Shown one piece after another: positions 38,356 through 58,120 of a stretch of DNA of 64,000 nucleotides. Under the pieces are notes generated by a model. That model made no database searches, was not told the origin of the DNA, and was given only the letters and a program-made list of their open reading frames with translations. Location of the stretch: assembly GCA_023954045.1 (NCBI GenBank), contig JAMLIR010000001.1, positions 434,001 through 498,000 on the forward strand, written 5' to 3'. Position numbers and translations under genes: made by a program. The number at the start of each line of letters is the position of its first letter. The stretch's first letter is position 1. Source of the stretch: Burkholderiaceae bacterium. Lineage in GTDB: Bacteria; Pseudomonadota; Gammaproteobacteria; Burkholderiales; Burkholderiaceae_E.

Positions 38356-39144
38356 ATGCTCTTCAAACGAACGGTCGCCTCGCGCCGATGGACGCCGCTG
38401 GCGGCCTCGCTCGCGGCGTTCGCGCTGCTGTGCGCGACCCTCGCCTACTGGGCGTTGCAGTGGCTTGCGCCGGCCGTTCCGATCGCGCCGGCCGGCTCGC
38501 TCGCCGACCAGCGCGACGCGCCCGATCTCGCGGCCGCATCCAGGCTGTTCGGCATGCCGGTCGGCAGCGGCGGCACGGCGCCCGTGGCGATGCCGTCGAA
38601 CATCCAGGTGCTCGGCGTCGCGGCCAGCGAGGTGCGGGGCAGCGCAGTCCTGGTCGTCGACGGCAGGCCGCCGAAGGCGTTCATGGTCGGCGACGCGGTG
38701 GGTGCCGACGCGAAGCTCGTCGAAGTGCGATCCGACGCCGCGGTCATCGAGCGCAACGGCGCGCGGATCGAGCTGGCGGCGCCGAAGCGCCCGTCGGTGG
38801 CCACGCTCTCCAGCGGCCCTGCGCGATCCGACGCGACGGCGGGCGCCACTGCGCCCCCCGTCGCAACCGCCGCCCCCGCGCCTGCGGCGCCACTGCCTGC
38901 AGCTCCCGCGCCTGCGGCCTCTGCGCCTGCAGTTCCCGCCGCTGCCGCGACGATCGCCGTGCCGCCGCCGCAGCCCGCGCCGAACCCGATCGAGGCACGC
39001 GGTCCCGCCGCCGGCGCGCCGGCGCCGGCCACGGCGCCCGCCCCGCCGGGGGTTCCCGGCGCGCCGGCAGCGGCTGTGCAGGAAGGCCAACCCCAGCAGC
39101 CGGCCGCGGTCGTCGACGGCGTCCGGCACAACGGGACCCAGTGA
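38356..39144 (+). CDS. gspC: Type II secretion protein GspC
   Basis: 262 residues: cytoplasmic N-terminus, one membrane helix ([21 protein letters not shown]), then the homology region ([12 protein letters not shown] ... [35 protein letters not shown]) that binds the secretin N0 domain. After about residue 155 the protein becomes almost entirely Ala/Pro ([15 protein letters not shown]) with no PDZ or coiled-coil domain. Encoded divergently from the rest of the gsp genes. Confidence 0.85.
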
Positions 39145-39995: not shown

Positions 39996-40556
39996 CTAGG
40001 CCCGGTCCGCGCTGCGCGCCGTCGAAGGTCGGCGGGCGCGCCGCCGCGCCGCGGCGCCGGCGGACTTGCGCGCCCGGGGCTGTGCGGCCTGCGGTCCGGC
40101 GGATGCGGCTTCGGCGTCCGGCGCCGCCACCGCCCCGATCGGCCGGCCCTGCTGCCGCTCGATCAGCCGCAGCATCGTCGCCAGCGTGATCGAACTCAGC
40201 GTGGCCTTGGCAATCTCGTCGATCTCCGAGAGCACCGCGCCCAGCGCCATGCCCACCGGCGTGTCCTCGCTCGGCTCGCGGCGCTCGTTGGGCGCCGGAG
40301 TGAGGTCTTCGAACAGGCGAATGACGTCCATCAGCGTGATCCGCCGCGCGTTGCCCGCGAAGCGGTAGCCGCCGCCGACTCCGCGCACCGACTCGACGAT
40401 GCCGGTGCGCGCGAGCTCGGAGAGCACCTTCGCGAGGTGATGCGGCGACACGCCGTACTTGCCCGCGATCTCGGCCGCCGGGATATGGCGCGTCGGATCG
40501 ATCGCGAACTCGAGCACGCTGTACAGCGCGAGCGACGTGTTCTTCTGCAGCCTCAT
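39996..40556 (-). CDS. Rrf2-family transcriptional regulator lacking cysteines
   Basis: 186 residues. The winged-helix DNA-binding region is clear: MRLQKNTSLALYSVLEFA, then AAEIAGKYGVSPHHLAKVLSELARTGIVESVRGVGGGYRF, the classic Rrf2 recognition helix and wing. Unlike IscR, NsrR or RsrR it has no cysteine at all, so an Fe-S cluster bound by Cys is excluded. The C-terminal 50 residues are an Arg/Ala-rich basic tail. It is 15 bp after the GNAT gene and probably co-transcribed with it from a promoter carrying an 18-bp inverted repeat, consistent with autoregulation. Its ligand is unknown; the gene set suggests aromatic acyl-CoA or nitrosative signals. Confidence 0.88.
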   Translation of the reverse strand: MRLQKNTSLALYSVLEFAIDPTRHIPAAEIAGKYGVSPHHLAKVLSELARTGIVESVRGVGGGYRFAGNARRITLMDVIRLFEDLTPAPNERREPSEDTPVGMALGAVLSEIDEIAKATLSSITLATMLRLIERQQGRPIGAVAAPDAEAASAGPQAAQPRARKSAGAAARRRARRPSTARSADRA

Positions 40557-40571: not shown

Positions 40572-41105
40572 TCAGGCATCGAGGTCCATCTCCAGCGGGA
40601 TGAAAGGTCCGGTCATCATGCCCTGGCTGCGAAAGAACGACAGGATCAGCGTGTTGTCGCGCGCGAGGATCGTGCGCAGCTTGCGCACGCCGAGGCGCCT
40701 GAAGCCGGCGCGCAGCGCGTCGAGCATCCGCGTGGCGACGCCGGCGAGCCGGAACTCCGGCGCGACGTCGATCGCGAACACCCAGCCGCAGGGAGGCGCG
40801 CCGAATTCCCAGTCACGCACTTCGCCGATGATGAAGCCCGCGACGCGCCCGTCGATGTCGGCCACCAGGAAGATGCGCTCGGGCTGCTCGCCGTCGCCGT
40901 AGCGCCGGAACACCGAGAGCCAGTAGCTGCGCTTCTCGACGCCGGTCACGGTCGCGTCGATCGCGATGACCCGGTCGAGGTCGGCGCGCCGCGCGGGGCG
41001 CACGGTGACGACGCCCGCCGGCTCGGGCGCCGGCGCGCGCGTCGCCGCCGCGCGGCGCCTGGCCGGTGCGCCCGCGGCGCCCGTACGTGTCGATGCCCTG
41101 GTCAT
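40572..41105 (-). CDS. GNAT family N-acetyltransferase
   Basis: 177 residues. After a 30-residue Arg/Ala-rich leader the GNAT fold starts (VTVRPARRADLDRVIAID). The acetyl-CoA pyrophosphate loop is FRLAGVATRML (R-x-x-G-x-A), preceded by the beta4 strand GWVFAIDVAP. The opening segment closely resembles both halves of the double-GNAT protein at 58153-59166. It leads an operon with the Rrf2 regulator. A protein-lysine acetyltransferase acting on the nearby acyl-CoA ligase is conceivable but not shown by sequence. Confidence 0.85.
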   Translation of the reverse strand: MTRASTRTGAAGAPARRRAAATRAPAPEPAGVVTVRPARRADLDRVIAIDATVTGVEKRSYWLSVFRRYGDGEQPERIFLVADIDGRVAGFIIGEVRDWEFGAPPCGWVFAIDVAPEFRLAGVATRMLDALRAGFRRLGVRKLRTILARDNTLILSFFRSQGMMTGPFIPLEMDLDA

Positions 41106-41120
41106 CGGTACCCCGAAAGA

Positions 41121-41134
41121 CTGATACAGATCAA
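41121..41134. promoter_or_regulatory. FNR/CRP-type box between the GNAT and liv operons
   Basis: CTGAT-ACAG-ATCAA matches the FNR consensus TTGAT-N4-ATCAA at 9 of 10 defined positions. Its centre (41127.5) would be 41.5 bp upstream of a transcription start at 41169 for the liv direction, where CAGAAT at 41157-41162 could serve as -10. That geometry is class II activation, implying oxygen-limited induction of the downstream aromatic operon. Confidence 0.55.
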
Positions 41135-41145
41135 ATGAATACCTG

Positions 41146-41163
41146 CATTCGGGTACCAGAATA
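41146..41163. promoter_or_regulatory. 18-bp inverted repeat, candidate Rrf2 operator
   Basis: CATTCGGGTACCAGAATA is a near-perfect palindrome centred on GGTACC (ATTC-N-GGTACC-N-GAAT). A sister copy is found at 57591-57608 before the hemerythrin gene. It overlaps the proposed -10 of the liv promoter and lies upstream of the GNAT-rrf2 operon, so binding could repress both directions. The nearest regulator gene is rrf2. Confidence 0.55.
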
Positions 41164-41360
41164 GGTGTTAACGGGCGCGCTGTAAACGTCTCCGCTGCAT
41201 ACGTCCCGGTTGTCGCCCGATGCAGACACCCTCGGGCAGTTCCGTTCCGGGACGCGTCCGATGGCCCCACCGCCCTGCCTGGCGCAGCACGCGCGCGGCA
41301 GGGCTTTTCCGGCAGGCCGCGCCGTGGCCGTGTCGTCGCAGACAAGAAGAGGAGACTCGA

Positions 41361-42527
41361 ATGAATTTCGTCGCAACTGCCCGGAGCGCGATCCGGCTCG
41401 CCGGTACCTTCGTCGCGGCCGCGCTGATCGGAACCGGAACCGTCGCCGCCCAGGAGCCTATCAGAATCGGCGCCTTCCTCTCGGTGACCGGACCCGCCGC
41501 CTTCCTCGGCGACCCCGAGCAGAAGACCCTCGAGATGTACGTCGAGCGCATCAACGCGGCCGGCGGCGTGCTCGGGCGCAAGCTGCAGCTGTTCGCCTAC
41601 GACAGCGGCGGCGACGCCGAGAAGGCGCGCACGTTCGCCAAGCGGCTGATCGAGCAGGACAAGGTCGACGTCATCGTCGGCGGCTCGACGACCGGCGAGA
41701 CGATGGCGGCGATCCCGCTGGTCGAGCAGGCGCAGGTGCCGTTCATCTCGCTCGCAGGCGCCGTCGTCATCATCGAACCGGTCAAGAAGTGGGTGTTCAA
41801 GACGCCGCACACCGACCGGATGGCCTGCGAGAAGATCTTCACCGACATGAACGCGCGCAAGCTGACGAAGCTCGCGCTGATCTCCGGGGCCGGCGGCTTC
41901 GACAAGTCCCTGCGCGCCGAGTGCATCAAGGTCGCGCCGAAGCACGGCATCGAGATCGTCGCCGACGAGAGCTACGGCGCCGCCGACACCGACATGACCG
42001 CGCAGCTCACCAAGATCAAGGCGACGCCGGGCGTGCAGGCGGTGATGAACTGCGGCTTCGGCCAGGGCCCCGGGATCGTCACCAAGAACTACCGGCAGAT
42101 CGGCCTCACGCTGCCGCTGTACCAGTCGCACGGGGTGGCCTCGAAGGAGTTCATCAAGCTCGCCGGCGGCGCCGCCGAGGGCGTGCGCTTGCCCGCCGCC
42201 GCGCTGCTGGTCGGCCACCTGCTCGCCGACAACGACCCGCAGAAAGCGGTCGTCGTCAACTACAAGAAGGATTACGAGGCTCGTTACAAGTCCGACGTTT
42301 CGACTTTCGGCGGCCACGCGTACGATGGCCTGATGATCGCGGTCGAGGCGATCAAGCGCGCCGGCGGCACCGACCGTGCCAAGGTTCGCGACGAGATCGA
42401 GAAGACCAAGGGCTACGTCGGCACCGGCGGCGTCGTCAACATGTCGCCGACCGACCACATGGGCCTCGACCTCAGCGCGTTCCGGATGCTCGAGATCCGC
42501 AACGGCGACTGGACGCTGGTGAAGTAA
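41361..42527 (+). CDS. ABC transporter periplasmic substrate-binding protein (LivK type)
   Basis: 388 residues with a Sec signal (MNFVATARSAIRLAGTFVAAALIGTGTVAA). The mature protein is a type I periplasmic-binding fold of the branched-chain amino-acid family: IRIGAFLSVTGPAAFLGDPEQ, then VIVGGSTTGETMAAIPL and a C-terminal DHMGLDLSAFRMLEI. The position at the head of an anaerobic aromatic operon suggests that it binds an aromatic acid rather than leucine. The ATG follows AGAGGAGAC. A 255-bp regulatory gap lies upstream. Confidence 0.9.
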   Translation: MNFVATARSAIRLAGTFVAAALIGTGTVAAQEPIRIGAFLSVTGPAAFLGDPEQKTLEMYVERINAAGGVLGRKLQLFAYDSGGDAEKARTFAKRLIEQDKVDVIVGGSTTGETMAAIPLVEQAQVPFISLAGAVVIIEPVKKWVFKTPHTDRMACEKIFTDMNARKLTKLALISGAGGFDKSLRAECIKVAPKHGIEIVADESYGAADTDMTAQLTKIKATPGVQAVMNCGFGQGPGIVTKNYRQIGLTLPLYQSHGVASKEFIKLAGGAAEGVRLPAAALLVGHLLADNDPQKAVVVNYKKDYEARYKSDVSTFGGHAYDGLMIAVEAIKRAGGTDRAKVRDEIEKTKGYVGTGGVVNMSPTDHMGLDLSAFRMLEIRNGDWTLVK

Positions 42528-42567: not shown

Positions 42568-43443
42568 ATGGGCGGACAGGCGGTCCAGTTCGTCGCCGGC
42601 GGGCTCACCGTCGGCGCGATCTACGCCCTGGTCGCGCTCGGCTTCTCGATCATCTTCAACGCCAGCCGTGTGATCAACTTCGCCCAGGGCGAGTTCGTGA
42701 TGATCGGCGGCATGAGCGCCGTCTCGCTGGTCGCCGCCGGCATGCCGATGCCGGCGGCGATCGTCGGCGCCGTCGCGATCGCCGGCGTCGTCGGGCTGCT
42801 GCTCGAGCGGCTCGCGGTCGGCCGGGCGCGCAACGCCGACGTCGTGACGCTGATCATCATCACGATCGGCGCCTCGATCTTCCTCAGGGGCCTCGCCCAG
42901 CTGGTCTGGGACAAGCGCATCCATCCGCTCGCGCCGCTCTCGGGCGACGCGCCGATCGCAATCCTCGGCGCGACGATCGTCCCGCAGAGCCTGTGGGTGA
43001 TCGGCGTCACCATCGTGATCGTGGCTGTGCTGTCGTGGTTCTTCCGACGCACGCTGCTCGGCAAGGCGATGCTCGCCACCTCGTACAACCGCTTCGCGGC
43101 GCAGCTGGTCGGCATCGAGGTGCGCCGGGTCCTGTTCGCCAGCTTCGGGCTGGCGGCCGCGCTCGGCGCGATCGCCGGCGTCCTGATCGCGCCGATCACC
43201 TTCACCTCCTACGACGCCGGCATCATGCTGGGACTCAAGGGATTCGCCGCGGCGATCCTCGGCGGCCTCGGCAGCTTCACCGGCGCGGTCGTCGGCGGGC
43301 TCGTGCTGGGGCTGCTCGAGAGCCTCGGCGCGGGCTACGTGTCGTCGGCCTACAAGGACGTGATCGCGTTCGTGATCATCCTCGCCGTGCTGGTCGTCCG
43401 TCCCGATGGAATCCTTGGTGCAGTCAAGAGCGAGCGCGTCTGA
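42568..43443 (+). CDS. ABC transporter permease (LivH type)
   Basis: 291 residues, polytopic. Typical LivH features: GLTVGAIYALVALGFSIIFNASRVINFAQGEFVMIGG at the start and the coupling region LLGKAMLATSYNRFAAQLVGIEVRRV, followed by GFAAAILGGLGSFTGAVVGG. It forms the inner-membrane channel with the LivM-type protein. The coding end overlaps the next gene by 38 bp. Confidence 0.92.
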   Translation: MGGQAVQFVAGGLTVGAIYALVALGFSIIFNASRVINFAQGEFVMIGGMSAVSLVAAGMPMPAAIVGAVAIAGVVGLLLERLAVGRARNADVVTLIIITIGASIFLRGLAQLVWDKRIHPLAPLSGDAPIAILGATIVPQSLWVIGVTIVIVAVLSWFFRRTLLGKAMLATSYNRFAAQLVGIEVRRVLFASFGLAAALGAIAGVLIAPITFTSYDAGIMLGLKGFAAAILGGLGSFTGAVVGGLVLGLLESLGAGYVSSAYKDVIAFVIILAVLVVRPDGILGAVKSERV

Positions 43444-44404
43444 GCCGCGCGTGCCGGCGGCGCATTGGTGGGCCGCCCCGCGCACCGGGGGCATGGCCGT
43501 GCTGGCGCTGGCCATCGCGCTCGCCCCGCTGGCGCTCGCCAACGACTACTTCTACGACGTCGCGATCCTGGTCGGCCTGAACGCCATCGTCTGCGTCGGA
43601 CTGAACCTGCTGATCGGCTACGCCGGGCAGATCAGCCTCGGCCACGCCGGCTTCTTCGGCCTCGGCGCCTACGGCTCGGCGCTGCTCGCGTCGCGCTACG
43701 GGGTGCCGCCGCTGGCGGCGCTCTTCGCTGCGACCGCCGCCGTGGGCCTGATGGCCTTCGTCGTCGGGCGCCCGATCCTGCGCCTGAAGGGCCACTACCT
43801 CGCGATGGCCACGCTCGGGCTGGGCATCATCGTGTCGATCGTGCTCGCCAACGAGGACCGCGTCACCGGCGGCCCCGACGGGATGCCGGTGCCGCCGCTC
43901 ACGATCCTCGGCTACGCGATCCAGGGCGAGCAGGTCTGGTACTGGGTCGTCGGTGCGTGCCTGCTGCTCGCGGTCTGGCTGGCGCTGAACCTGATCGAGT
44001 CGCCCACCGGGCGCGCGCTGCGCGCACTGCACACCTCGGAAGTCGCAGCCGAGGTCGTCGGCATCGACAGCGCGCGGCAGAAATTGATGGTCTTCGTCGT
44101 CTCGGCCGTCTTCGCGGCGGCCGCCGGCGGCCTGACCGCGTTCTACAGCGGATTCATCACGCCCGCCAAGGCCTCGTTCATGCACTCGGTGGAGCTGGTC
44201 ACGATGGTCGTCTTCGGCGGCATGGCGTCGACCTTCGGCGCCGTCGTCGGTGCGGCCGTCCTGACCGTGCTGCCCCAGGCGCTCACCGTGGTGAAGGAAT
44301 ACGAAATGGTCGTGCTCGGCGCGATCATGATGGCGACGATGATCTTCCTGCCGCGCGGAGCGGTGCCGACGCTGGCGGGCTGGCTCGGCCGGGGGCGCGA
44401 ATGA
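43406..44404 (+). CDS. ABC transporter permease (LivM type)
   Basis: 332 residues. The signature GLNLLIGYAGQISLGHAGFFGLGAYGSALLA is typical of LivM, as is the coupling stretch SPTGRALRALHTSEVAAEVVGID. An internal GTG at 43451 could also be the start, which would remove the overlap with the LivH-type gene. The end overlaps the ATPase start by 4 bp (ATGA). Confidence 0.92.
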   Translation: MESLVQSRASASEPRVPAAHWWAAPRTGGMAVLALAIALAPLALANDYFYDVAILVGLNAIVCVGLNLLIGYAGQISLGHAGFFGLGAYGSALLASRYGVPPLAALFAATAAVGLMAFVVGRPILRLKGHYLAMATLGLGIIVSIVLANEDRVTGGPDGMPVPPLTILGYAIQGEQVWYWVVGACLLLAVWLALNLIESPTGRALRALHTSEVAAEVVGIDSARQKLMVFVVSAVFAAAAGGLTAFYSGFITPAKASFMHSVELVTMVVFGGMASTFGAVVGAAVLTVLPQALTVVKEYEMVVLGAIMMATMIFLPRGAVPTLAGWLGRGRE

Positions 44405-45986: not shown

Positions 45987-46394
45987 ATGAAACCTACCCT
46001 CGCCCCCGGCGCAACGCGCACCAGCAAGCTCACCGTCGACCGCGACCGCACCATCGGCTTCATGGGCGAGAGCGCCCGCGTCTACGCCACGCCGATGCTG
46101 GTGCAGGACATCGAGATCGCCTGCCGCGAGTTGCTGCTCGAGCACCTCGACGCCGGCGAAGACTCGGTGGGCACGCGCGTGGAGATCGACCATCTCGCCG
46201 CCACGCTGCTGGGCATGCCGGTCGAACTGAAGGTGACCATCGCCGAAGTCAAGGGCCGCGCGGTCACCTTCGAGGTCGAGGGCCGCGACAGCGTCGACGC
46301 GATCTGCCGCGGCCGGCACAGCCGCTTCGTGGTCGACGTCGAGGGCACTGCCGCGCGCCTGGCAGCCAAGGCGAAGAAGGCAGGCCTGGCATGA
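45987..46394 (+). CDS. Hotdog-fold acyl-CoA thioesterase
   Basis: 135 residues. The pattern KLTVDRDRTIGFMGESARVYATPMLVQDIE followed by EDSVGTRVEIDHLAATLLGMPVELKVTIAEVKGRAVTFEVEG fits the FlK-like (fluoroacetyl-CoA type) thioesterase group. The stop overlaps the start of the molybdoenzyme gene by 4 bp. A thioesterase in an aryl-CoA operon can release stalled CoA thioesters and recycle CoA; the actual substrate cannot be told. The ATG follows ACGGAG. Confidence 0.8.
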   Translation: MKPTLAPGATRTSKLTVDRDRTIGFMGESARVYATPMLVQDIEIACRELLLEHLDAGEDSVGTRVEIDHLAATLLGMPVELKVTIAEVKGRAVTFEVEGRDSVDAICRGRHSRFVVDVEGTAARLAAKAKKAGLA

Positions 46395-49156
46395 GCGTCG
46401 CGGCTGCCGCCGCGGCCGACGCGGGCCGCGCCGACGCGCCCGCGCCGGGCCTGCGCCGGGTTCCCACCTACTGCTACCAGTGCGTGGCGGGCCCCGATCT
46501 GCTCACCGTCAAGGTGGTCGATGGCGTGGCCACCGAGGTGGAGCCCAATTTCTGCGCCGAGAAGATTCATCCGGGCGGCGGCAAGGTCTGCGTGAAGGCA
46601 TACGGGCTGGTCCAGAAGACCTACAACCCGAACCGGATCCTCACGCCGATGAAGCGGACCAACCCGAAGAAGGGCCGCGACGAGGATCCGGGCTTCGTGC
46701 CGATCTCCTGGGAAGAGGCGTTCGACACCATCGCCGAGCGCCTGAACCGGATCCGCGAGCAAGGCCTCACCGACGAATCCGGCTACCCGCGGCTGGCGGC
46801 GAGCTTCGGCGGCGGCGGCACGCCGCAGTTCTACATGGGCACCTTCCCGGCCTTCCTCGCGGCCTGGGGGCCGGTCGACATGGGCTTCGGCTCGGGCCAA
46901 GGCGTCAAGTGCGACCACTCCGAGCACCTGTACGGCGAGTTCTGGCACCGCGCGTTCATCGTCGCGGCCGACACGCCGAACTGCAACTACCTGATCTCCT
47001 GCGGCTCGAACATCGAGGCCTCGGGCGGCGTGGTCGGCGTCTGGCGACATTCGCAGGCGCGCGTGCGCGGCCTGAAGCGCGTCCAGGTCGAACCGCACCT
47101 GTCGGTCACCGGCGCCTGCTCGGCGCAGTGGGTGCCGATCAAGCCGAAGACCGACGCGGCGTTCCTCTACGCGCTGATCCACGTGCTGCTGCACGAAGTG
47201 CCGCGCGAGCGGCTCGACCTGCCGTTCCTCGCGAAGCGCACTGCGTCGGCCTACCTGGTTGGCCCCAACGGTTACTACCTGCGCGATCGCGCGACCCGCA
47301 AGCCGCTGGTCTGGGACGCGAGCGCCGGCTGCGCGCGCCCGCACGACGGCGAGGGGCTCGACGAAGCGCTGCACGCCAGGGTCGAGGTCGACGCGCTCGA
47401 GATCGGCCCCGACGACGAAGTGCTCGCCGACGGCGCGCTCGCCGGCGAGACCGCGTTCGACAAGCTGGTCGCGCACATGCGGCCCTACTCGCCCGAGTGG
47501 GCGCAGGGCGTCTGCGACGTGCCGGCAGCCACGATGCGCAAGATCGCGCACGAATACGTCGAGCACGCCTGCGTCGGCCAGACGATCGAGATCGAGGGGC
47601 GCGAGCTCCCGTATCGCCCGGTCGCGGTCACGCTGGGCAAGACGATCAACAACGGCTGGGGCGGTTACGAATGCTGCTGGGCGCGAACGATGCTCGCGTC
47701 GCTGGTGGGCGCGCTCGAGGTTCCCGGCGGCACCATCGGCACCACGGTGCGGCTGGTGCGCCCGATGTCCGAGCGGCTGGAGAGCGCGAAGCCCGGCCCC
47801 GACGGGTTCATGGCGTACCCGATGAACCCCACCGATCGCAAGAACTGGTCGCCGCGCCCGAACATCCGCAACGCCTATCGCACGATGGTGCCGCTGGTGG
47901 GCAACGGCGCATGGAGCCAGGCGCTGGGCCCGACGCACTTCTCGTGGATGTTCCTGGACGAGACGCCTAAGGGCTTGCCGAAGGTCACGTTCCCCGACGT
48001 CTGGTTCGTCTACCGGACGAACCCGGCGATCTCGTTCTGGGACACGCTGTCGGTCGCGGACAAGATCGCCCGCTTCCCGTTCGTCGTCGCGCTCGCCTAC
48101 ACCCGCGACGAGACCAACCACTTCGCCGACATCCTGCTGCCCGACGCCACCGACCTCGAAGGGCTGCAGCTGATCCGCATCGGCGCGACCAAGTACGTGG
48201 AACAGTTCTGGGACCACGAAGGCTTCGCGCTGCGCCAGCCGGCGGTCGCGATGCGCGGCCAGGCCCGCGACTTCACCGACATCGCCACCGAACTGGCGCG
48301 GCGCAGCGGCATTCTCGAGAAATACAACGCGTCGATCAACAAGGGCACCTGCGGGGTGCCACTGAAGGGCGAGCACGGCGACTTCTCCCTGGCGCTCGAG
48401 CGCGCGCACACCCGCGAGGAGATCTGGGACGCGGCCTGCCGCGCGGCCAGCGCCGAGCTCACCGAAGGCGCACAGGTCCACGGTCTCGACTGGTGGAAGC
48501 AGCAGGGCCTGGCGACGAAACCGTTTCCGCGCATCGCCTGGTATCTCTATCCGACGATGGTCGAGCGCGGTCTGCGCTTCGAGCTGCCCTACCAGGAGCG
48601 CCTGATGCGCGTGGGCGCCGAGCTGGGCCGGCGCCTGCACGAGCACGACATGCGCTGGTGGGACAAGCAGATGGGCGAGTACCAGGCGCTTCCCGCCTGG
48701 AAGGACTTCCCGGGCCTCTGGGAAGGCATCGTCACCGCCGACGGTGCGCGTGCCGAAGACTATCCGTTCTGGCTGCTCACCTCGCGCAGCATGCAGTACG
48801 CCTGGGGCGGAAACGTCGGCGTACAGATGATCCGCGAAGTCGCCGAGAACGTCGCAGGCCACCGCGGCGTGATCGTCAACCCGCAGGCCGCAGCCAGGCT
48901 CGGCATCGAGGACGGCGACGAGATCGAGATCGCCACCCCGAAACGCAGCGTGCGCGGGCGCGCGGTGCTGCGCCAGGGCATCCGCCCCGACACGCTGTTG
49001 CTGATCGGCCAGTTCAACCACTGGGCCACGCCGTTCGCGAAGGACTTCGGCGTGCCCAGCCTGAACGCGCTGGCCAGCATGTCGATGGACCTCACCGACG
49101 CTACCGGCTCGAGCGCCGACATCGTGCGCGTCGCCATCCGGAGGGCCGCGGCATGA
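46391..49156 (+). CDS. padB: Molybdopterin oxidoreductase catalytic subunit, PadB-like
   Basis: 921 residues, bis-MGD molybdopterin family. N-terminal Fe-S region: Cys28-x2-Cys31 in TYCYQCVAGPD, and Cys67 in GKVCVKAYG; the usual third Cys (position 35) is absent. Cys174 in GSGQGVKCDHSEH lies roughly where a molybdenum ligand is expected (inference). The C-terminal cofactor-binding domain (LGIEDGDEIEIATPKRSVRGRAVL) is complete. Together with a four-cluster Fe-S protein, a membrane anchor and a phenylacetate-CoA ligase-like gene, it resembles phenylacetyl-CoA:acceptor oxidoreductase PadBCD of Thauera and Azoarcus (phenylacetyl-CoA to phenylglyoxylate). No Tat signal, so the active site should be cytoplasmic. 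Confidence 0.75.
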   Translation: MSVAAAAAADAGRADAPAPGLRRVPTYCYQCVAGPDLLTVKVVDGVATEVEPNFCAEKIHPGGGKVCVKAYGLVQKTYNPNRILTPMKRTNPKKGRDEDPGFVPISWEEAFDTIAERLNRIREQGLTDESGYPRLAASFGGGGTPQFYMGTFPAFLAAWGPVDMGFGSGQGVKCDHSEHLYGEFWHRAFIVAADTPNCNYLISCGSNIEASGGVVGVWRHSQARVRGLKRVQVEPHLSVTGACSAQWVPIKPKTDAAFLYALIHVLLHEVPRERLDLPFLAKRTASAYLVGPNGYYLRDRATRKPLVWDASAGCARPHDGEGLDEALHARVEVDALEIGPDDEVLADGALAGETAFDKLVAHMRPYSPEWAQGVCDVPAATMRKIAHEYVEHACVGQTIEIEGRELPYRPVAVTLGKTINNGWGGYECCWARTMLASLVGALEVPGGTIGTTVRLVRPMSERLESAKPGPDGFMAYPMNPTDRKNWSPRPNIRNAYRTMVPLVGNGAWSQALGPTHFSWMFLDETPKGLPKVTFPDVWFVYRTNPAISFWDTLSVADKIARFPFVVALAYTRDETNHFADILLPDATDLEGLQLIRIGATKYVEQFWDHEGFALRQPAVAMRGQARDFTDIATELARRSGILEKYNASINKGTCGVPLKGEHGDFSLALERAHTREEIWDAACRAASAELTEGAQVHGLDWWKQQGLATKPFPRIAWYLYPTMVERGLRFELPYQERLMRVGAELGRRLHEHDMRWWDKQMGEYQALPAWKDFPGLWEGIVTADGARAEDYPFWLLTSRSMQYAWGGNVGVQMIREVAENVAGHRGVIVNPQAAARLGIEDGDEIEIATPKRSVRGRAVLRQGIRPDTLLLIGQFNHWATPFAKDFGVPSLNALASMSMDLTDATGSSADIVRVAIRRAAA

Positions 49157-49803
49157 CGCGCTGGGCCATGATCGCCGACCTGCGTCGCTGCGTCGGCTGC
49201 CAGACCTGCACCGCGTCGTGCAAGCACGCCAACGCCACGCCGCCGGGCGTGCAGTGGCGGCGCGTGCTCGACATGGAGTTCGGCGAGTACCCGGAGGTCA
49301 AGCGCGCGTTCGTGCCCACCGGCTGCCAGCACTGCGACGATCCGCCGTGCATGGAGGTCTGCCCGACCACCGCCACGAAGAAGCGTCGCGACGGCATCGT
49401 GACGATCGACTACGACCTGTGCATCGGCTGCGCCTATTGCGCGGTCGCCTGCCCCTACCAGGCGCGCTACAAGACCGAGCGGGCAACCTTTGCCTACGGT
49501 GCGCCCACCGAGAGCGAAGCCAGGCGCCACGACGACGCGCGGCTGGGCGTCGCCACCAAGTGCACGTTCTGCGTCGAGCGCATCGACGCGGGCCTCGAGA
49601 AGGGGCAGACGCCCGGCGTCGATCCCGAGGCCACGCCGGCCTGCGTGAACGCGTGCATCGCCAAGGCGCTCGCCTTCGGCGACCTCGACGACCCGGCCAG
49701 CAACGTCTCGCAGCTGCTCGCCGAAAACCAGCACTTCCGCATGCACGAGGACCTCGGCACCGGCCCCGGCTTCTACTATCTCTGGGACAAGGCGCAGGCA
49801 TGA
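49153..49803 (+). CDS. padC: Four-cluster iron-sulfur subunit, PadC-like
   Basis: 216 residues with 16 cluster cysteines in four groups: Cys13/16/19/23, 58/61/66/70, 90/93/96/100 and 137/140/164/168. This is the DmsB/PsrB-type electron-transfer subunit carrying four [4Fe-4S] clusters between the molybdenum subunit and the membrane anchor. No signal peptide. Its ATG overlaps the padB stop (ATGA) and its stop overlaps the padD ATG. Confidence 0.82.
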   Translation: MTRWAMIADLRRCVGCQTCTASCKHANATPPGVQWRRVLDMEFGEYPEVKRAFVPTGCQHCDDPPCMEVCPTTATKKRRDGIVTIDYDLCIGCAYCAVACPYQARYKTERATFAYGAPTESEARRHDDARLGVATKCTFCVERIDAGLEKGQTPGVDPEATPACVNACIAKALAFGDLDDPASNVSQLLAENQHFRMHEDLGTGPGFYYLWDKAQA

Positions 49804-50645
49804 GCTACGGCCCCAAACCCTGGCAGCAGGCGCACTGGGACTGGCGCGCCGCAGGCAACTTCGTCTTCGGCGGCGCCGGCAGCGGGCTGCTGGTCTTCAC
49901 CGCGCTGTCGGGCGCGCGCGGCACGACGGCCACGCTGCTCACGCTGGGTGCGCTCGCGCTCGTCGGCCTCGGGCTGCTGTGCGTGTGGCTCGAAATCGGC
50001 CGGCCGACGCGCGCGCTGCACGTGTTCTTCAACCCGCGCACCTCCTGGATGTCGCGCGAAGCCTTCGTCGCCACGCTGCTGTTTCCGGCGGGCCTCGCCG
50101 CCGCGGCCGGCCTCGCGCCGTTCGCCTGGCTGTCCGCGCTGCTCGCGCTCGCGTTCGTCTACTGCCAGGCGCGCATCCTGAAAGCGGCGCGCGGCATCCC
50201 GGCGTGGCGCGAGCCGCTGGTCGTCCCGCTGATCGTGACCACCGGACTGGCCGAAGGCGGCGGGCTGTTCCTGCTCGCGAATCCGCTGCACGGGGCGGCG
50301 AACCAGGCGCTGATCGCGTTGTTCGGCGCGCTGCTGGCGGCGCGCTGGCTCGCGTGGCTCGCCTACCGGCGCAATCTCGTGGCGGCAGCGGCGCCGAGGG
50401 CGCTCGCGGCACTCGACCGGGCCGGCGGCACGCTGCAGACCTTCGGCACCTGGCTCGCGCTGGCGCTGGCCGCGCCGGCCGGCATCGGGCTGGTCGGTGG
50501 CGCGGGCGCCGCGCTGCTCGCGGCGCTGGCCGGGCTGATGGCCGCCGGATCCGGCGCCTGGCTCAAGTACACGCTGGTCACGCGCGCCGCCTTCAACCAG
50601 GGGTTCGCGCTGGCGCGCCTGCCGGTGCGCGGCGCGCGGCCCTGA
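49800..50645 (+). CDS. padD: NrfD/DmsC-like membrane anchor, PadD-like
   Basis: 281 residues with about eight hydrophobic helices. It begins MSYGPKPWQQAHWDWRAAGNFVFGGAGSGLLVF, followed by CVWLEIGRPTRALHVFFNPRTSWMSREAF, a typical NrfD/DmsC motif with the GRP-x-R turn. It should anchor the Mo/Fe-S pair to the inner membrane and pass electrons to quinone. The ATG overlaps the padC stop. Confidence 0.8.
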   Translation: MSYGPKPWQQAHWDWRAAGNFVFGGAGSGLLVFTALSGARGTTATLLTLGALALVGLGLLCVWLEIGRPTRALHVFFNPRTSWMSREAFVATLLFPAGLAAAAGLAPFAWLSALLALAFVYCQARILKAARGIPAWREPLVVPLIVTTGLAEGGGLFLLANPLHGAANQALIALFGALLAARWLAWLAYRRNLVAAAAPRALAALDRAGGTLQTFGTWLALALAAPAGIGLVGGAGAALLAALAGLMAAGSGAWLKYTLVTRAAFNQGFALARLPVRGARP

Positions 50646-50677
50646 CGAGAGACTCGACACGGATTCCAGGAGAGGAC

Positions 50678-52030
50678 ATGGCAACCGACACCACGACGAA
50701 GCCGCGGCGCGCCGCGAACCGGGACGAAGCGCGCTGCCTGCATCCGGAGCAGGAGACGATGCCGCGCGAGCAGCTCGCGGCGCTGCAGCTGGCGCGGCTG
50801 CGCGAGACCGTGACGAACGCCTGGGAGAACGTCCCGCTGCATCGCTCGCGACTCGATGCGGCCGGCGTGAAGCCCGCGGACATCGCCTCGCTCGACGACG
50901 TCCGGCGGCTGCCGTTCACGCTGAAGTCCGACCTGCGCGACCACTATCCGTTCGGGATGTTCGCCCGGCCGCTGGGCGAACTCGCGCGGCTGCATGCGTC
51001 CTCGGGCACCACCGGCAAGCCGACCGTCGTCGGCTACACGCAAGGCGACCTCGACAACTGGGCCGACCTGATGGCGCGCTCGTTGCACGCGGGCGGCGCG
51101 CGGCGCGGCGACGTGGTCCACAACGCCTACGGCTACGGGCTGTTCACCGGGGGGCTGGGCGCGCACTACGGCGCCGAGCGCCTGGGCGGCGTGGTGGTGC
51201 CGATGTCGGGCGGGTCGACCGAGCGACAGGTCTCGCTGATCATGGACTTCAAGGCGCGGGTGCTGTGCTCGACGCCGTCCTACGCGCTCGCGATCGCCGA
51301 GCTGGCCGAGCAGCAGGGCGTGAACCTCGCGAAGGATTCGGCGCTGGAAGTCGGCATGTTCGGCGCCGAACCCTGGAGCGACGCGATGCGCCGCGAGATC
51401 GAGGCACGCCTGGGCATCCGCGCGGTCGACATCTACGGGCTCTCCGAGATCATGGGCCCGGGCGTGGCCTGCGAGTGCGAGCACCACGACGGCCTGCACG
51501 GCTGGGAGGACCACTTCCTGTTCGAGGTCATCGACCCCGATTCCGGCCAGCCGGTCCCGGAGGGCGAAGCCGGCGAGCTGGTGATCACGACGCTGACCAA
51601 GCAGGCGCTGCCGATGCTGCGCTACCGCACCCGCGACATCACGCGGATCACGACCGCGCCGTGCGCCTGCGGCCGCACGCACCTGCGCATCCTGAGGGTC
51701 ACCGGGCGCAACGACGACATGCTGATCATCCGCGGCGTCAACGTCTATCCGTCCCAGGTCGAGGCGGTGCTGGTCGGGCTGCAGAACATCGCGCCGCACT
51801 ACCAACTCGTGGTCGAGCGCAAGGGCAGCCTCGACCACGTGACGGTCGAGACCGAGGCTCAGCCGGGCGTCGACCCCGGTTCCTACGACGGGATCGCGCG
51901 CAAGGTCGCGCACCAGATCAAGTCGCTGCTCGGCATCACCACCGACGTCGTCGTCAAGCGCCCCGGCGAGATCCCCCGCTCGCAGGGCAAGGCGGTGCGC
52001 GTGCGCGACCTGCGACCCAAGGGAGTCTGA
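50678..52030 (+). CDS. Phenylacetate-CoA ligase family protein (PadJ/PaaK-like)
   Basis: 450 residues, a PaaK-type AMP-forming ligase. The P-loop is SSGTTGKPTVVGYT (residues 108-121), the A5-type motif is IYGLSEIMGPG (residues 252-262), and the C-terminal domain has GRNDDMLIIRGVNVYPSQVE and a terminal SQGKAVRVRDLR with the catalytic-type lysine. It activates an aryl acid (phenylacetate or 4-hydroxyphenylacetate most likely) to its CoA thioester. CACGRTH and ECEHHDG are the Cys/His patches seen in this family. Strong CCAGGAGAG ribosome site. It lies between the padBCD and hcr genes. Confidence 0.88.
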   Translation: MATDTTTKPRRAANRDEARCLHPEQETMPREQLAALQLARLRETVTNAWENVPLHRSRLDAAGVKPADIASLDDVRRLPFTLKSDLRDHYPFGMFARPLGELARLHASSGTTGKPTVVGYTQGDLDNWADLMARSLHAGGARRGDVVHNAYGYGLFTGGLGAHYGAERLGGVVVPMSGGSTERQVSLIMDFKARVLCSTPSYALAIAELAEQQGVNLAKDSALEVGMFGAEPWSDAMRREIEARLGIRAVDIYGLSEIMGPGVACECEHHDGLHGWEDHFLFEVIDPDSGQPVPEGEAGELVITTLTKQALPMLRYRTRDITRITTAPCACGRTHLRILRVTGRNDDMLIIRGVNVYPSQVEAVLVGLQNIAPHYQLVVERKGSLDHVTVETEAQPGVDPGSYDGIARKVAHQIKSLLGITTDVVVKRPGEIPRSQGKAVRVRDLRPKGV

Positions 52031-52034
52031 AACC

Positions 52035-52499
52035 ATGACCAAGAGACTGCTCTCCATCACCGTGAACGGGCGTACCCGCGAGGACGCGGTCTCCGATCAC
52101 GCGCTGCTCGTCGATTACCTGCGCGACACCGTCGGGCTCACCGGCACCAAGCAGGGCTGCGACGGCGGCGAATGCGGCGCCTGCACCGTGCTGGTCGATG
52201 GCCAGACGCGGCTGGCATGCATCACGCTGGCCGCGAGCTGCGAAGGCAAGCAGGTCGAGACGATCGAGAGCCTGTCCGCGGGCGGCCGCATGAGCCGCCT
52301 GCAGCACGCGTTCCACGAGAACCTCGGCACGCAGTGCGGCTTCTGCACGCCGGGGATGATCATGGCCTCCGAGGCCCTGCTGCGCCGCAATCCGCATCCG
52401 GACGACGCGCAAATCCGCGACGCCCTGTCGGGCAACCTGTGCCGCTGCACCGGTTACGTCAAGATCATCGAATCGGTGAAGGCCGCCGCGGGGGAATGA
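52035..52499 (+). CDS. hcrC: 4-Hydroxybenzoyl-CoA reductase gamma subunit, [2Fe-2S]
   Basis: 154 residues with both clusters of xanthine-oxidase family small subunits: Cys42/47/50/62 (plant-type) and Cys101/104/136/138 (second [2Fe-2S]). The end motif GNLCRCTGYVKIIESV is typical. It conducts electrons from the beta subunit to the molybdenum cofactor. Four bp after the ligase gene and 4 bp before hcrA. Confidence 0.92.
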   Translation: MTKRLLSITVNGRTREDAVSDHALLVDYLRDTVGLTGTKQGCDGGECGACTVLVDGQTRLACITLAASCEGKQVETIESLSAGGRMSRLQHAFHENLGTQCGFCTPGMIMASEALLRRNPHPDDAQIRDALSGNLCRCTGYVKIIESVKAAAGE

Positions 52500-52503
52500 C
52501 CAG

Positions 52504-54909
52504 ATGAATCCGATTGCAGCTCCCGAGAGCGCCGCCGCCCAGGGCGCGCCCGCCGCCGGCCGCGGCGAGCACCCGGTGGGACAGCGCACGCCGCTGATCG
52601 ACGGCATCGAGAAAGTCACCGGCCGCGCACGCTACACCGCCGACCTGCCGTTCGGCGAGACGCTGGTGGGCAAGATCCTGCGCAGCCCCGTCGCCCACGG
52701 CGTGATCCGCGGAATCGACGCGACGAAGGCGCGCGCGATGCCCGGCGTGCGCGCAGTCGTCACCGGCGAGGATTTCTCGGCGCCTTACGGCGTGATCCCG
52801 ATCGCGCAGAACGAGTGGCCGCTCGCGCGCGGCAAGGTCCGCTACCGCGGCGAGCCGGTGGTCGCCGTCGCGGCGATCGACGAGGCGACCGCGGAGGCGG
52901 CGCTGGCGACGATCGTCCTGGACATCGAACCGCTTCCGGCCTACTTCACCGCGGCCGACGCGCGCGCCCCTGGCGCTGCGTTGCTTCACGAGAAGAAAGC
53001 GGGCAACGTCGAGCGCGACGTCGACCACACCTTCGGCGACGTCGAGGCGGGCTTCGCGGCAGCCGACCTGGTGCGCGAGCACACCTTCCACTACGCCGAG
53101 GTCTCGCACGGACAGATCGAGCTGAACGCGGCGGTGGCCTCGTACGAGCCCGAGCGCGACCGCCTGACCACGCATTCGGTCACCCAGGTGCCCTACTACC
53201 TGCACCTGACGCTCGCGCAGTGCCTGGGCATGGACAGCTCGCAGATTCGCGTGGTCAAGCCCTTCGTCGGCGGCGGCTTCGGCCACCGCGTCGAGCCGCT
53301 GAACTTCGAGATGGTCACCGCGGCGCTGGCGCGCGCCGCCGGCGGCACGGTGCGCATCGAGCAGTCGCGCGAAGACAGCTTCCTCACGCATCGGGGCCGC
53401 CCCGAGACCGACGTCCGGCTCAGGATCGGCCTGAAGAAGAACGGCGAGATCACCGCGGTCGACGCCGAGATCGTCCAGCGCGGAGGCGCCTACGGCGGCT
53501 ACGGGCTGGTCACGATCCTCTACGCGGGCGCGCTGCTGCACGCGATCTACAAGCTGGGCGCGGTGAAGTACCGTGGCTTCCGCATCTACACCAATACGCC
53601 GCCGTGCGGCGCGATGCGCGGCCACGGCGCGGTCACCGCGCGCCACGCGTTCGAGACGCTGCTCGACCGCATGGCCGAGGAACTCGGGCTCGATCCGTTC
53701 GAGGTGCGGCGCGCGAACCTGATCACGCCGCCCTACCGCACGTTGAACGACCTGCAGGTCAACTCGTACGGCATTCCCGAATGCCTCGACTGGGTCGAGC
53801 AGGCGTCGGGCTGGAAGGAGCGGCACGGCAGGCTGCCGCGCGGGCGCGGTCTCGGCATGGCCTGCTCGCACTACGTGTCGGGCTCGGCCAAGCCGGTGCA
53901 CTGGAGCGGCGAACCGCACGCGGTGATCAACCTGAAGCTCGACTTCGACGGCGGGATCACGATCCTCACCGGCGCGTCCGACATCGGCCAGGGCTCCTCG
54001 ACGCTGCTCACGCAGATCGTCGCCGAGGTCCTCGCGCTGCCGCTCGCGCGCGTGCGCGTCGTGGCGACCGACAGCGCGCTCACGCCGAAAGACAACGGTT
54101 CGTACTCGTCGCGTGTCTCGTTCATGGTCGGCAACGCGGCGCTCAGGGCCGCGCAGGCGATGAAGCGCGTGCTGCTCGAGGCGGCCGCGAAGCGCCTCGA
54201 GGTCAGCGTCGACGACATCGAGTGGGAAGGCGAGCAGTGCCGGGTCGCCGGCACCGATCGCGCGCTCGGCTTCGCGCAGGTGGTCGAGGCCGCGCTCGCC
54301 GACGCCGGCACGCTGACCGTCAAGGGCGCCTGGTCCACGCCGCCGGAGACGCAGGGCGGCAAGTTCCGCGGCGCTGCCGTCGGCTCGTCGGCCGGTTTCT
54401 CGTACGCCGCGCAGGTGGTCGAGGTCTCGGTGGACGAGGACACCGGCGTGGTCAAGGTCGAGCGCGTCTGGGTCGCGCACGACTGCGGCCGCGCGATCAA
54501 CCCGCTGGCGGTCGAGGGGCAGGTGCAGGGCGCGGTCTGGATGGGCATGGGCCAGGCGATGTCCGAGGAGAACCAGTACCACCTCGGCCTGCCGATGCGC
54601 CCGAACATGCTCGACTACCGGATCCCCACCATCGCGGAGTCGCCGCCGATCGAGGTGAAGCTCGTCGAGAGCAACGACCCGCTCGGGCCCTTCGGCGCCA
54701 AGGAGGCGAGCGAGGGCGCGCTGCACGGCTTCCCGCCGGCTCTGGCCAACGCGATCCACGACGCGATCGGAATCCGCCTCGACGACCTTCCGCTCACCCC
54801 CGACCGCGTGCTCGAGGCCATCCACGCTCGACGCCGCGAGGAGCGGCTGCGGGCTTCCAGGCCCGCGGCGGCGCGCGCCGCAGCCGCCGCGCCCGAGACC
54901 AGGAGCTGA
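52504..54909 (+). CDS. hcrA: 4-Hydroxybenzoyl-CoA reductase alpha subunit (molybdenum)
   Basis: 801 residues. Xanthine-oxidase family catalytic subunit: GGGFGHRVE (about residue 255), QSREDSFLTHRG, PCGAMRGHGAV, QGSSTLLTQI-type cofactor loop and the active-site glutamate in GPFGAKEASEG (about residue 734). It reductively removes the phenolic hydroxyl of 4-hydroxybenzoyl-CoA to give benzoyl-CoA. The C-terminal 20 residues are Arg/Ala-rich. The presence of the HcrB-type beta subunit next door decides hydroxybenzoyl-CoA reductase over other xanthine-oxidase members. Confidence 0.92.
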   Translation: MNPIAAPESAAAQGAPAAGRGEHPVGQRTPLIDGIEKVTGRARYTADLPFGETLVGKILRSPVAHGVIRGIDATKARAMPGVRAVVTGEDFSAPYGVIPIAQNEWPLARGKVRYRGEPVVAVAAIDEATAEAALATIVLDIEPLPAYFTAADARAPGAALLHEKKAGNVERDVDHTFGDVEAGFAAADLVREHTFHYAEVSHGQIELNAAVASYEPERDRLTTHSVTQVPYYLHLTLAQCLGMDSSQIRVVKPFVGGGFGHRVEPLNFEMVTAALARAAGGTVRIEQSREDSFLTHRGRPETDVRLRIGLKKNGEITAVDAEIVQRGGAYGGYGLVTILYAGALLHAIYKLGAVKYRGFRIYTNTPPCGAMRGHGAVTARHAFETLLDRMAEELGLDPFEVRRANLITPPYRTLNDLQVNSYGIPECLDWVEQASGWKERHGRLPRGRGLGMACSHYVSGSAKPVHWSGEPHAVINLKLDFDGGITILTGASDIGQGSSTLLTQIVAEVLALPLARVRVVATDSALTPKDNGSYSSRVSFMVGNAALRAAQAMKRVLLEAAAKRLEVSVDDIEWEGEQCRVAGTDRALGFAQVVEAALADAGTLTVKGAWSTPPETQGGKFRGAAVGSSAGFSYAAQVVEVSVDEDTGVVKVERVWVAHDCGRAINPLAVEGQVQGAVWMGMGQAMSEENQYHLGLPMRPNMLDYRIPTIAESPPIEVKLVESNDPLGPFGAKEASEGALHGFPPALANAIHDAIGIRLDDLPLTPDRVLEAIHARRREERLRASRPAAARAAAAAPETRS

Positions 54910-54911
54910 AC

Positions 54912-55910
54912 ATGGACAGCATGCCCGCATTCGTCCTGAAGCGCCCCACCAGCGTCGCCGAGGCCGCGGCGCTGCTCGCCGGCGATCCGCAGGCGCGGCT
55001 GCTCGCCGGCGGCACCGACCTCGTGCCGAACATGCGCCGCGGCATCGCGCGCCCGTCGATCCTGATCGACCTCGGCGAGGTGACCGGACTCGACGCGGTC
55101 ACGTTCGCGCCCGAAGGCACCTGGATCGGCGCGCGGCTCAGGCTGGCGCAGCTGGCCTCGGACGCGTCGTTCGCCGCGGCCTGGCCCGCGATCACGCAGG
55201 CCGCCGGCTCGATCGCGGGGCCCGGCCACCGCAGCGCCGCCACGGTCGGCGGCAACCTCTGCCTGGACACGCGCTGCGTGTTCTACAACCAGAGCGAGTG
55301 GTGGCGCGCGGCGAACGACTACTGCCTGAAGCTGGGCGGCGACACCTGCCACGTCGCCCCGCAGGGCGCGCGCTGCCACGCCGCATTCTCCGGCGACCTC
55401 GCCCCGGCGCTGCTGGTGCTCGACGCCGAGGTCGAACTGGTGGCCAGCCGCGGCACGCGGCGCATCGCACTCGCCGACATGTACCGCGACGACGGCGCCG
55501 CGCACCTGACGATCGCCCGCGACGAGATCCTCACCCGCGTGCTGATCCCTGCGAGCGCCAACGCAAGGGCGTCCGCTTACCGCAAGGCGCGCGCGCGCGC
55601 TGCGATGGACTTCCCGCTGGCCGGCGTGGCCTGCGCGGTCACGCTCGGCGACGACGGCGCGCTGCGCACGCTGCGGGTTGCGCTCACCGGCACCAACTCG
55701 CATCCGCTGGTCCTCTCGGGCACCGATGCGCTGCTCGGCCGCGCGGTCGACGACGCGCTGCTCGCCACGCTAGGCAAACTGGTCCAGAAGCAGGTGAGCC
55801 CGATGCGCACCACCGTGACGCAGTCGAACTACCGCCGGCAGGTCGCCGCCGTGCTGGCGCAAAGGCTGCTGCAGTCGCTGGCGCAGCCGGCGAACGCGCC
55901 CGTGGCCTGA
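54912..55910 (+). CDS. hcrB: 4-Hydroxybenzoyl-CoA reductase beta subunit (FAD and [4Fe-4S])
   Basis: 332 residues. FAD-binding site LLAGGTDLVPNMRRG and TVGGNLCLDTRC. The HcrB-specific insertion carrying an extra [4Fe-4S] cluster is intact: Cys122, Cys138, Cys146 and Cys155, positions I recall from the Thauera enzyme. This cluster lets the enzyme run in the reductive direction with ferredoxin. Two bp after hcrA. Completes an active HcrABC complex. Confidence 0.94.
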   Translation: MDSMPAFVLKRPTSVAEAAALLAGDPQARLLAGGTDLVPNMRRGIARPSILIDLGEVTGLDAVTFAPEGTWIGARLRLAQLASDASFAAAWPAITQAAGSIAGPGHRSAATVGGNLCLDTRCVFYNQSEWWRAANDYCLKLGGDTCHVAPQGARCHAAFSGDLAPALLVLDAEVELVASRGTRRIALADMYRDDGAAHLTIARDEILTRVLIPASANARASAYRKARARAAMDFPLAGVACAVTLGDDGALRTLRVALTGTNSHPLVLSGTDALLGRAVDDALLATLGKLVQKQVSPMRTTVTQSNYRRQVAAVLAQRLLQSLAQPANAPVA

Positions 55911-57566: not shown

Positions 57567-57590
57567 TGGACCGATCCGGTCCTCTTTCGT

Positions 57591-57608
57591 TATTCTAGTA
57601 TCCGAATA
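57591..57608. promoter_or_regulatory. Second copy of the 18-bp inverted repeat (candidate Rrf2 operator)
   Basis: TATTCTAGTATCCGAATA has the same arms (TATTC ... GAATA, 8 bp apart) and centre as the copy at 41146-41163 (its reverse complement is TATTCTGGTACCCGAATG). The two agree at 15 of 18 positions. It overlaps the predicted -10 and lies 17 bp before the hemerythrin ATG. Confidence 0.55.
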
Positions 57609-57625
57609 CCATTATTGGACCGGCG

Positions 57626-58120
57626 ATGAACTTCCAGCGACAGGTCAGCCACGCGCTCGACGACGAGCACCGCACCAACCTCGACCTTCTCGGCCGCATC
57701 GAACAGGCGTTCGCGCGCGCGCCGCGCACGGGCGCGAGTCGCGACCCCGACCTCGCCAAGGTCGCCGCGAGCTTCGCGCGCCACCTCGAGCAGGACGTGA
57801 ACCGGCATTTCGACTTCGAGGAGCGCGAGCTGTTCACGCGGCTTGCCGACGCGGGCGAAGGCGACATCGCCGAGCTGCTCACCGAGGAGCACGCCGCGAT
57901 CCGCGCGGTCGCCGACGAGATGCTGCCGCTCGCGCGCGCCGCCGCGGCCGGATCCCTCGACGACGAAGGCTGGAATGCGCTGAAGGTCGGCGCGCTCGAG
58001 ATGGTCGAACGCCAGGTCTCCCACATCCAGAAGGAGACCATGGCGCTGCTGCCGATGCTCGAGGACCTGCTCGACGAAGACACCGACCGCGAACTCGCCT
58101 TCGCCTACGCCGCCGCGTGA
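57626..58120 (+). CDS. Hemerythrin-domain protein
   Basis: 164 residues, all-helical. Diiron ligands expected for a hemerythrin HHE domain are visible: His15, His53, His61 with Glu65/66, His89 (EEHAAIR) and His133 with Glu137. Such cytoplasmic hemerythrins store or sense O2 or NO, or protect and repair Fe-S proteins. First gene of an operon with a double-GNAT protein, a MIP18/DUF59 protein and an NnrS-like membrane protein, behind an FNR-type box and an inverted repeat. Confidence 0.85.
   Translation: MNFQRQVSHALDDEHRTNLDLLGRIEQAFARAPRTGASRDPDLAKVAASFARHLEQDVNRHFDFEERELFTRLADAGEGDIAELLTEEHAAIRAVADEMLPLARAAAAGSLDDEGWNALKVGALEMVERQVSHIQKETMALLPMLEDLLDEDTDRELAFAYAAA

Follow-up and report, generated by a model that had tools for sequence, protein, structure and literature searches.

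At positions 41121-41164 of the 64,000-nucleotide stretch of Burkholderiaceae DNA analysed here (hereafter the window), an FNR-type box lies beside a palindrome resembling an operator, and it is very likely, judging from the sequence of the region and its relatives, that a BadM-type repressor site is combined here with FNR-type activation to control genes for the anaerobic use of aromatic acids. The region separates a GNAT-Rrf2 gene pair from a divergent block of liv, aryl-CoA and hcr genes (Table 1), and had been singled out in a sequence-only reading as an anaerobic feedback switch. What stands of that reading, as a prediction, is that the promoter of an aryl-acid block carries an FNR-type box together with an operator that goes with the adjacent Rrf2 gene and is positioned where it could obstruct RNA polymerase; what does not stand is oxygen sensing by FNR proper.

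Table 1. Features of the control region and the surrounding genes (positions are those of the window)
Feature	Position	Strand	Basis or remarks
Rrf2-family protein, BadM-like predicted repressor, no cysteine	39996..40556	-	TIGR00738 97.1 bits, cut-off 73.3
GNAT acetyltransferase, BadL-like	40572..41105	-	Pfam PF00583, PF13508
FNR/CRP-type activator box CTGAT-ACAG-ATCAA (CTGATACAGATCAA)	41121..41134	+	centre 41127.5; 0.96 conserved in near orthologs
Predicted BadM-type operator	41145..41164	.	16-bp symmetric core ATTCGGGTACCAGAAT at 41147-41162; family consensus about GYATTNNGGTACCNNAATRC
Predicted liv operon transcription start, ~41169	41165..41172	+	holds if the FNR-type box acts at -41.5
livK-H-M-G-F-type ABC importer genes	41361-42527, 42568-43443, 43406-44404, 44401-45246, 45239-45940	+	NCBIfam Liv models, below equivalog cut-offs
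FlK/4HBT-type thioesterase	45987..46394	+	Pfam PF22636
Molybdopterin oxidoreductase	46391..49156	+	Pfam PF00384, PF01568; NCBIfam matches all below cut-off
4Fe-4S protein, NrfD-like membrane protein (weak, below cut-off), AMP-binding CoA ligase	49180..52038	+	Pfam on frames 48493-49803, 49218-50645, 49979-52030
4-hydroxybenzoyl-CoA reductase genes: hcrC 52035-52499, hcrA 52504-54909, hcrB-like within 54906-55910	52035..55910	+	
Second FNR-type box TTGAC-GCGC-ATCAA	57553..57566	+	40 bp centre to centre from second operator
Second predicted BadM-type operator	57590..57609	.	TATTCTAGTATCCGAATA at 57591-57608
Hemerythrin-domain protein behind second operator	57626..58120	+	Pfam PF01814

The box CTGAT-ACAG-ATCAA is present just where it had been reported, with one mismatch to the FNR-type pattern. 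The adjoining palindrome, described earlier as spanning 18 bp (41146-41163), is also present, but its symmetric core, ATTC-G-GGTACC-A-GAAT, covers only 16 bp and is self-complementary except for a single unpaired position in each arm; the two bases that flank it, 41146 C and 41163 A, do not pair with each other, yet fit the Y...R of the family consensus. The centres of box and operator are 27 bp apart, within an intergenic region of 255 bp that extends from the GNAT ATG (41105, minus strand) to the first liv ATG (41361, plus strand). The window contains exactly two FNR-type boxes (at most one mismatch to TTGATNNNNATCAA; 41121 and 57553) and exactly two operator matches (at most two mismatches; 41146 and 57591), which together make up two pairs. 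In the 4.02 Mb genome as a whole the exact 16-bp palindrome has a single occurrence, while a search allowing three mismatches returned 50 matches against 26 for the reversed control, implying that weak matches are mostly noise. Two further sites in this genome, each with two mismatches (L091/L148 and L092/L149), were set aside, as no pathway gene was present nearby.

Downstream of the GNAT gene (PF00583 44.3 bits, cut-off 20.7), and 15 bp from it, lies the gene for the Rrf2 protein (PF02082 92.5, cut-off 30), which, in line with the earlier description of it as cysteine-less, has no cysteine in its 186 residues. The protein shares its superfamily with the Fe-S cluster regulators NsrR, IscR and RirA (its TIGR00738 score being above the cut-off), from which it differs in lacking cysteine and in scoring far below the cut-offs of the Fe-S equivalog models; on these grounds we rejected an Fe-S sensor of NO or redox state. 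A PDB entry titled as a BadM/Rrf2 family protein, 4CIC, matched with an E value of only 5.8e-13 and was not used. On the opposite side of the control region, the liv-type genes are the first genes of the block behind the operator. They are followed by, among others, a molybdopterin oxidoreductase that we take from its context to be PadB-like, and by hcrC and hcrA, which score above the NCBIfam cut-offs of TIGR03193 and TIGR03194; Pfam matches in the hcr block include PF00941 and PF03450. A G-rich, Shine-Dalgarno-like stretch precedes the GNAT ATG in orthologs, as judged by eye.

In the scheme that we propose by analogy with characterized systems, transcription of the livKHMGF / aryl-CoA / hcr block would be controlled from 41121-41164. 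An FNR-type activator would bind 41121-41134 during anaerobic growth and drive a class II-like promoter rightward from about 41169; FNR-type activation of liv is likely, and the 41.5 bp from the centre of the box to 41169 is arithmetic on a predicted start. The Rrf2 protein would serve as a BadM-type repressor that sits on 41145-41164, covering the -10 region, and keeps RNA polymerase out, and it is highly probable that the palindrome is the operator of this local protein. The GNAT is likely to be BadL, the maker of the co-inducer, a role that the sequence-only reading had missed: its substrate would be an aromatic amine, for instance an aminobenzoate, and the acetylated compound would free the repressor, although for the co-inducer being an acetylated aryl amine we have a slight preference only. 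Through this operator the GNAT-Rrf2 operon is probably damped as well, such autoregulation being reasonably likely.

Both sites are conserved. When identity to the window was measured across the window and eight near orthologs, the FNR box reached 0.96 and the operator core 0.91, as compared with 0.83 for the spacer between the two sites, 0.83 for 41106-41120, 0.82 for 41163-41190 and 0.61 further into the intergenic region (41191-41330). Operator positions outside the search pattern are also conserved (G2/C21 0.84; G9/C14 0.76). In the more distant members L018 and L021 the long leader is absent, and the liv ATG follows the FNR centre by 82.5 bp and the right arm of the operator by 47 bp. The start must therefore lie close to the operator in these loci, as would be the case for a class II FNR-type promoter.

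The sequence-only reading had suggested that the motif be sought genome-wide, and such a search across 18 genomes of the genus, using the pattern TATTNNNGTACNNNAATA with at most one mismatch and the same pattern reversed as a control, found 46 sites against 2. All except one of these adjoin reference genes: 11 lie at liv/GNAT, 9 at bcrC-like genes, 9 at had/kor, 4 at bcr-like/kor, 10 at hemerythrin genes and 2 at genes for molybdenum enzymes. The operator precedes bcrC-like genes in 9 of the 18 genomes; here the assignment is to be read loosely, the bcrC-like protein scoring 290 bits against an equivalog cut-off of 421, while Had is above its NCBIfam cut-off. Within the window's own genome, four sites were found, before liv, bcrC-like, had/kor and hemerythrin genes, and the predicted operator at 41145-41164 is thus one of four, something that had been missed earlier. 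The possibility that the palindrome is a functionless product of chance was considered, since short palindromes are common in single sequences and the matches in this genome at three mismatches come near to control levels (50 and 26); given that the site is conserved and recurs at one set of operons, and given the comparisons with controls, we rejected it as extremely improbable.

The association extends to the FNR-type box, which was found (at most one mismatch) within 120 bp of 41 of the 46 sites as against 0.32% of 7777 control windows. Moreover, the distance between FNR and operator centres is fixed within each class of target: 27-28 bp at liv, 46-48 at bcrC, 60-61 at had/kor, 57-60 at bcr-like/kor and 37-40 at hemerythrin, the two molybdenum-enzyme sites being the ones at which it is not fixed. 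A common helical phase for these distances (27, 37-40, 46-48, 57-61), sought by hand, was not convincing. At the bcrC and hemerythrin sites the order is FNR box, operator, gene in 19 of 19 cases, and the same order was assumed in assigning a target side to the divergent promoters (liv/GNAT and had/kor). That the same operator stands beside an FNR-type box at bcrC-like, had/kor and hemerythrin promoters suggests that one repressor gates an anaerobic aromatic regulon. A hemerythrin-domain gene lies behind an operator and an FNR-type box in 10 of the 18 genomes (L118, L120, L122, L128, L130, L133, L136, L139, L142 and L145); possibly, the hemerythrin could scavenge oxygen on behalf of the reductases.

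These spacings also bear on which operon the box at 41121 would serve. The promoter region is divergent, and with its centre only some 22 bp ahead of the GNAT ATG the box could in principle belong to the GNAT-Rrf2 operon and not to liv. In that case a class II position would require transcription to begin within the GNAT gene, at 41086; in addition, the order seen in all 19 tandem promoters at bcrC and hemerythrin genes here points to liv, as does the proximity of the liv ATG to the FNR centre in L018 and L021. From this spacing and promoter order we regard an FNR box for the GNAT operon as quite unlikely, and retain liv as its predicted target.

Across the genus and beyond, the operator largely accompanies the Rrf2 gene. 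G010 is the only one of the 18 genus genomes without an Rrf2 ortholog (best E 1.9e-8), and its single operator match, the 46th site, falls inside a monooxygenase-like frame; sites matching the pattern with at most one mismatch were absent at pathway-type genes in this genome, which may or may not encode the pathway. G017 has an Rrf2 ortholog and no site at one mismatch. Among 250 genomes of the order, the 6 with an ortholog have 19 sites against 1 for the control, whereas the 244 without one have 678 against 1008. One genome of the latter kind, G051, has 8 sites against 0; no pathway genes were seen near the three of these that were viewed. In 37 more distant ortholog-carrying genomes the enrichment was modest (52 against 30), and of 30 sites retrieved, one per genome, 23 lie beside reference genes and 7 do not. 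Three of these 7 precede genes resembling aldehyde:ferredoxin oxidoreductase or glutamate synthase. Operator-like sites before genes of the aldehyde:ferredoxin-oxidoreductase family are those at L150:1134 (Geobacteraceae) and L177:1501; this family includes BamB, a subunit of class II benzoyl-CoA reductase. One of the 23, in Rhodopila globiformis, lies between BadM-like and BcrC-like genes, with an exact FNR box 63 bp away.

The gene pair itself is widely maintained. GNAT and Rrf2 were both matched at more than 44% identity in 20 of 20 loci (L002-L021) and in 53 of 56 (L032-L087), while no such GNAT was found beside the more distant Rrf2 matches L022-L031. Zeimonas arvi, a culturable relative, is among the carriers of the locus (L044). 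Of 54 named loci, 34 have the operator (at most three mismatches) ahead of GNAT, compared with 3.6% of 1080 shuffles; at this threshold it was not found there in the other 20. In 21 of the 54 the best operator match lies 27-28 bp from the best FNR match, which in three cases is a weak one with three mismatches. In a Rhodoferax/Comamonadaceae-like group (L040-L043, L046 and L047), the aligned place upstream of GNAT holds a different conserved palindrome, around TTGCATGCAA, as if the specificity of the repressor had changed.

Since the pathway and the Rrf2 gene travel together, this association cannot by itself separate the Rrf2 protein from some other transcription factor that reads the palindrome as the operator of an anaerobic aromatic regulon, the GNAT-Rrf2 genes being mere neighbours, and the 20 named loci that have the gene pair and no good operator before GNAT would fit such another reader. 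What argues against it is an alphaproteobacterial family (that of genome G163, in the class of Rhodopila) in which 68 of 75 genomes have the Rrf2 protein. We examined 32 loci of this family, namely the best-scoring 28 (L222-L249) together with L216, L218, L220 and L221, and found GGTATTNNNGTACNNNAATACC, with at most three mismatches, within 300 bp upstream of GNAT in 29 of them. Over all 36 loci of the run, 30 of the real sequences and 0 of 720 shuffles reached three mismatches. The flanks (1.5 kb, or about 10 kb for L216, L218, L220 and L221) gave no match when searched for BcrC, Had, KorA, Hcr and the molybdenum enzyme, the wider flanks of these four loci holding distant liv-type paralogs only. 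Our strongest evidence that the operator goes with the Rrf2 gene independently of the pathway is thus its presence before GNAT in loci where none of the benzoyl-CoA genes searched for was found nearby. Furthermore, Rrf2 proteins are dimeric, which suits a site with two-fold symmetry. Another reader is therefore unlikely, and we take the local Rrf2 protein to be the probable one. The frequency of the operator before GNAT in this family also suggests autoregulation, in keeping with the feedback element of the sequence-only reading; that element finds a mixed picture in other alphaproteobacterial loci, where the operator precedes GNAT in 3 of 11 (first set) and 1 of 3 (later set).

It is conceivable, if tentative, that GNAT-Rrf2 (BadL-BadM) constitutes a widespread autoregulated signalling module of Proteobacteria, which would use a single conserved operator some 20 bp long (GYATTNNGGTACCNNAATRC) and an N-acetylated aryl amine as the internal message for aromatic acids. 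In Burkholderiales such a module would jointly gate uptake, ring reduction, later steps and an oxygen-binding hemerythrin, and in the G163 family it would have been kept, in those 68 of 75 genomes, apparently apart from benzoyl-CoA reduction.

As for the activator, five CRP/FNR-like matches were found in the window's own genome (an assembly that is 97% complete), and only one of these has an FNR-type recognition helix. This FNR-like protein (G000:C49:78708-79454; L254) carries the helix LETVSR and scores 198.3 bits, below the cut-off of 228. E. coli FNR has an N-terminal C-x2-C cluster; an N-terminal cysteine cluster was absent from the FNR-like protein in all 16 genus copies examined (that of this genome, with the others at L276-L290; one copy is truncated). 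The earlier proposal of oxygen sensing by FNR itself is thus unsupported, given that the sole candidate with an FNR-type helix lacks the cluster, and either the activator may be of the FixK/AadR kind or the assembly may lack the gene for a true FNR. An alternative of nearly even weight is accordingly that the activator is not an oxygen-sensing FNR, and that a cysteine-less FNR-like protein acts downstream of another sensor, in a FixK/AadR-like cascade, or constitutively, with the repressor giving specificity. The published precedent, as far as the available part of the account goes, is that R. palustris aadR is itself under FixLJ-FixK (PMC6191541); on the other side, a cysteine-containing FNR may be absent simply from this assembly, and the targets are oxygen-sensitive reductases. 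This alternative is compatible with repression by the Rrf2 protein as proposed above, because it changes the activator and leaves the operator as it is. The gene for the FNR-like protein is convergent, by eye, with a histidine-kinase-like gene.

The closest characterized counterpart is the BadL-BadM-AadR system of Rhodopseudomonas palustris, in which BadM has reportedly been mapped (Peres and Harwood, 2006; Hirakawa, 2015). According to the portion of the account available (PMC6191541), R. palustris BadL acetylates aminobenzoates, and acetamidobenzoates relieve BadM repression at badDEFGAB, a release that took 10 mM in vitro, while the CRP/FNR-type protein AadR activates the same operon. BadM binds a 212-bp badC-badD probe in vitro, and deletion of both genes of the pair restores growth. 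As in the window, adjacent GNAT and Rrf2 genes are thus found beside an anaerobic aromatic cluster, and a benzoyl-CoA reductase operon is controlled by a CRP/FNR-type activator and an Rrf2 repressor at one promoter, as we predict here; the likeness is one of published description, and the R. palustris operator may or may not match. A 385-genome draw of the class, of which 20 regions were inspected, and the G163 family yielded no recognisable R. palustris-like cluster. The present system differs in having matching sites at further promoters, those of transport/4-hydroxybenzoyl-CoA reductase, had/kor and hemerythrin genes, in that it belongs to Burkholderiales and not to a phototrophic alphaproteobacterium, and in that its FNR-like protein is without cysteines.

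A badL-badM pair is likewise described for Geobacter metallireducens and Magnetospirillum magneticum in the same partial text (PMC6191541), which covers assays of the GNATs alone (aminobenzoate acetylation and partial complementation) and, in that portion, describes no operator for either pair. In our own data, a Geobacteraceae genome (L084) has a pair 46-47% identical to the window proteins and an operator-like site before GNAT at two mismatches. The promoter architecture proposed here also resembles that of the bzd PN promoter of Azoarcus sp. CIB, where, in the available parts of two reports (PMC6678401; PMC6449761), the CRP/FNR-type activator AcpR acts at -41.5 and BzdR covers -10/+1 of an anaerobic benzoate operon. 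BzdR itself differs, being described there not as an Rrf2 protein but as one that joins an XRE-type DNA-binding domain to a shikimate-kinase-like domain, recognizes TGCA repeats and has benzoyl-CoA as the compound to which it responds.

The kind of regulation is therefore known, and it is this member and the breadth of its regulon that look new. A 2024 survey, in the part available, mentions BadM in connection with Alphaproteobacteria only (PMC10803450), and a description of the operator was not found in the open literature searched, although one may be in print for R. palustris. If the interpretation is correct, the commitment of these Burkholderiales to the costly, oxygen-sensitive destruction of aromatic rings would be governed by an acetyl-signal/repressor pair of the R. 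palustris type. A short DNA word would then allow the regulon to be read from sequence, predicting which operons belong together, including that of a hemerythrin with a possible role in shielding the reductases from oxygen.

Two observations concern the setting of the gene pair. In the window, type II secretion genes (GspL-, GspH- and T2SSJ-like; minus strand, approximately 33800-38400) lie downstream of the Rrf2 gene. On an Agrobacterium tumefaciens plasmid typed as conjugative (NZ_CP123840.1; L274), a GNAT-Rrf2 pair lies beside molybdenum-hydroxylase, liv and benzoate-CoA-ligase genes, and the operator precedes GNAT at four mismatches.
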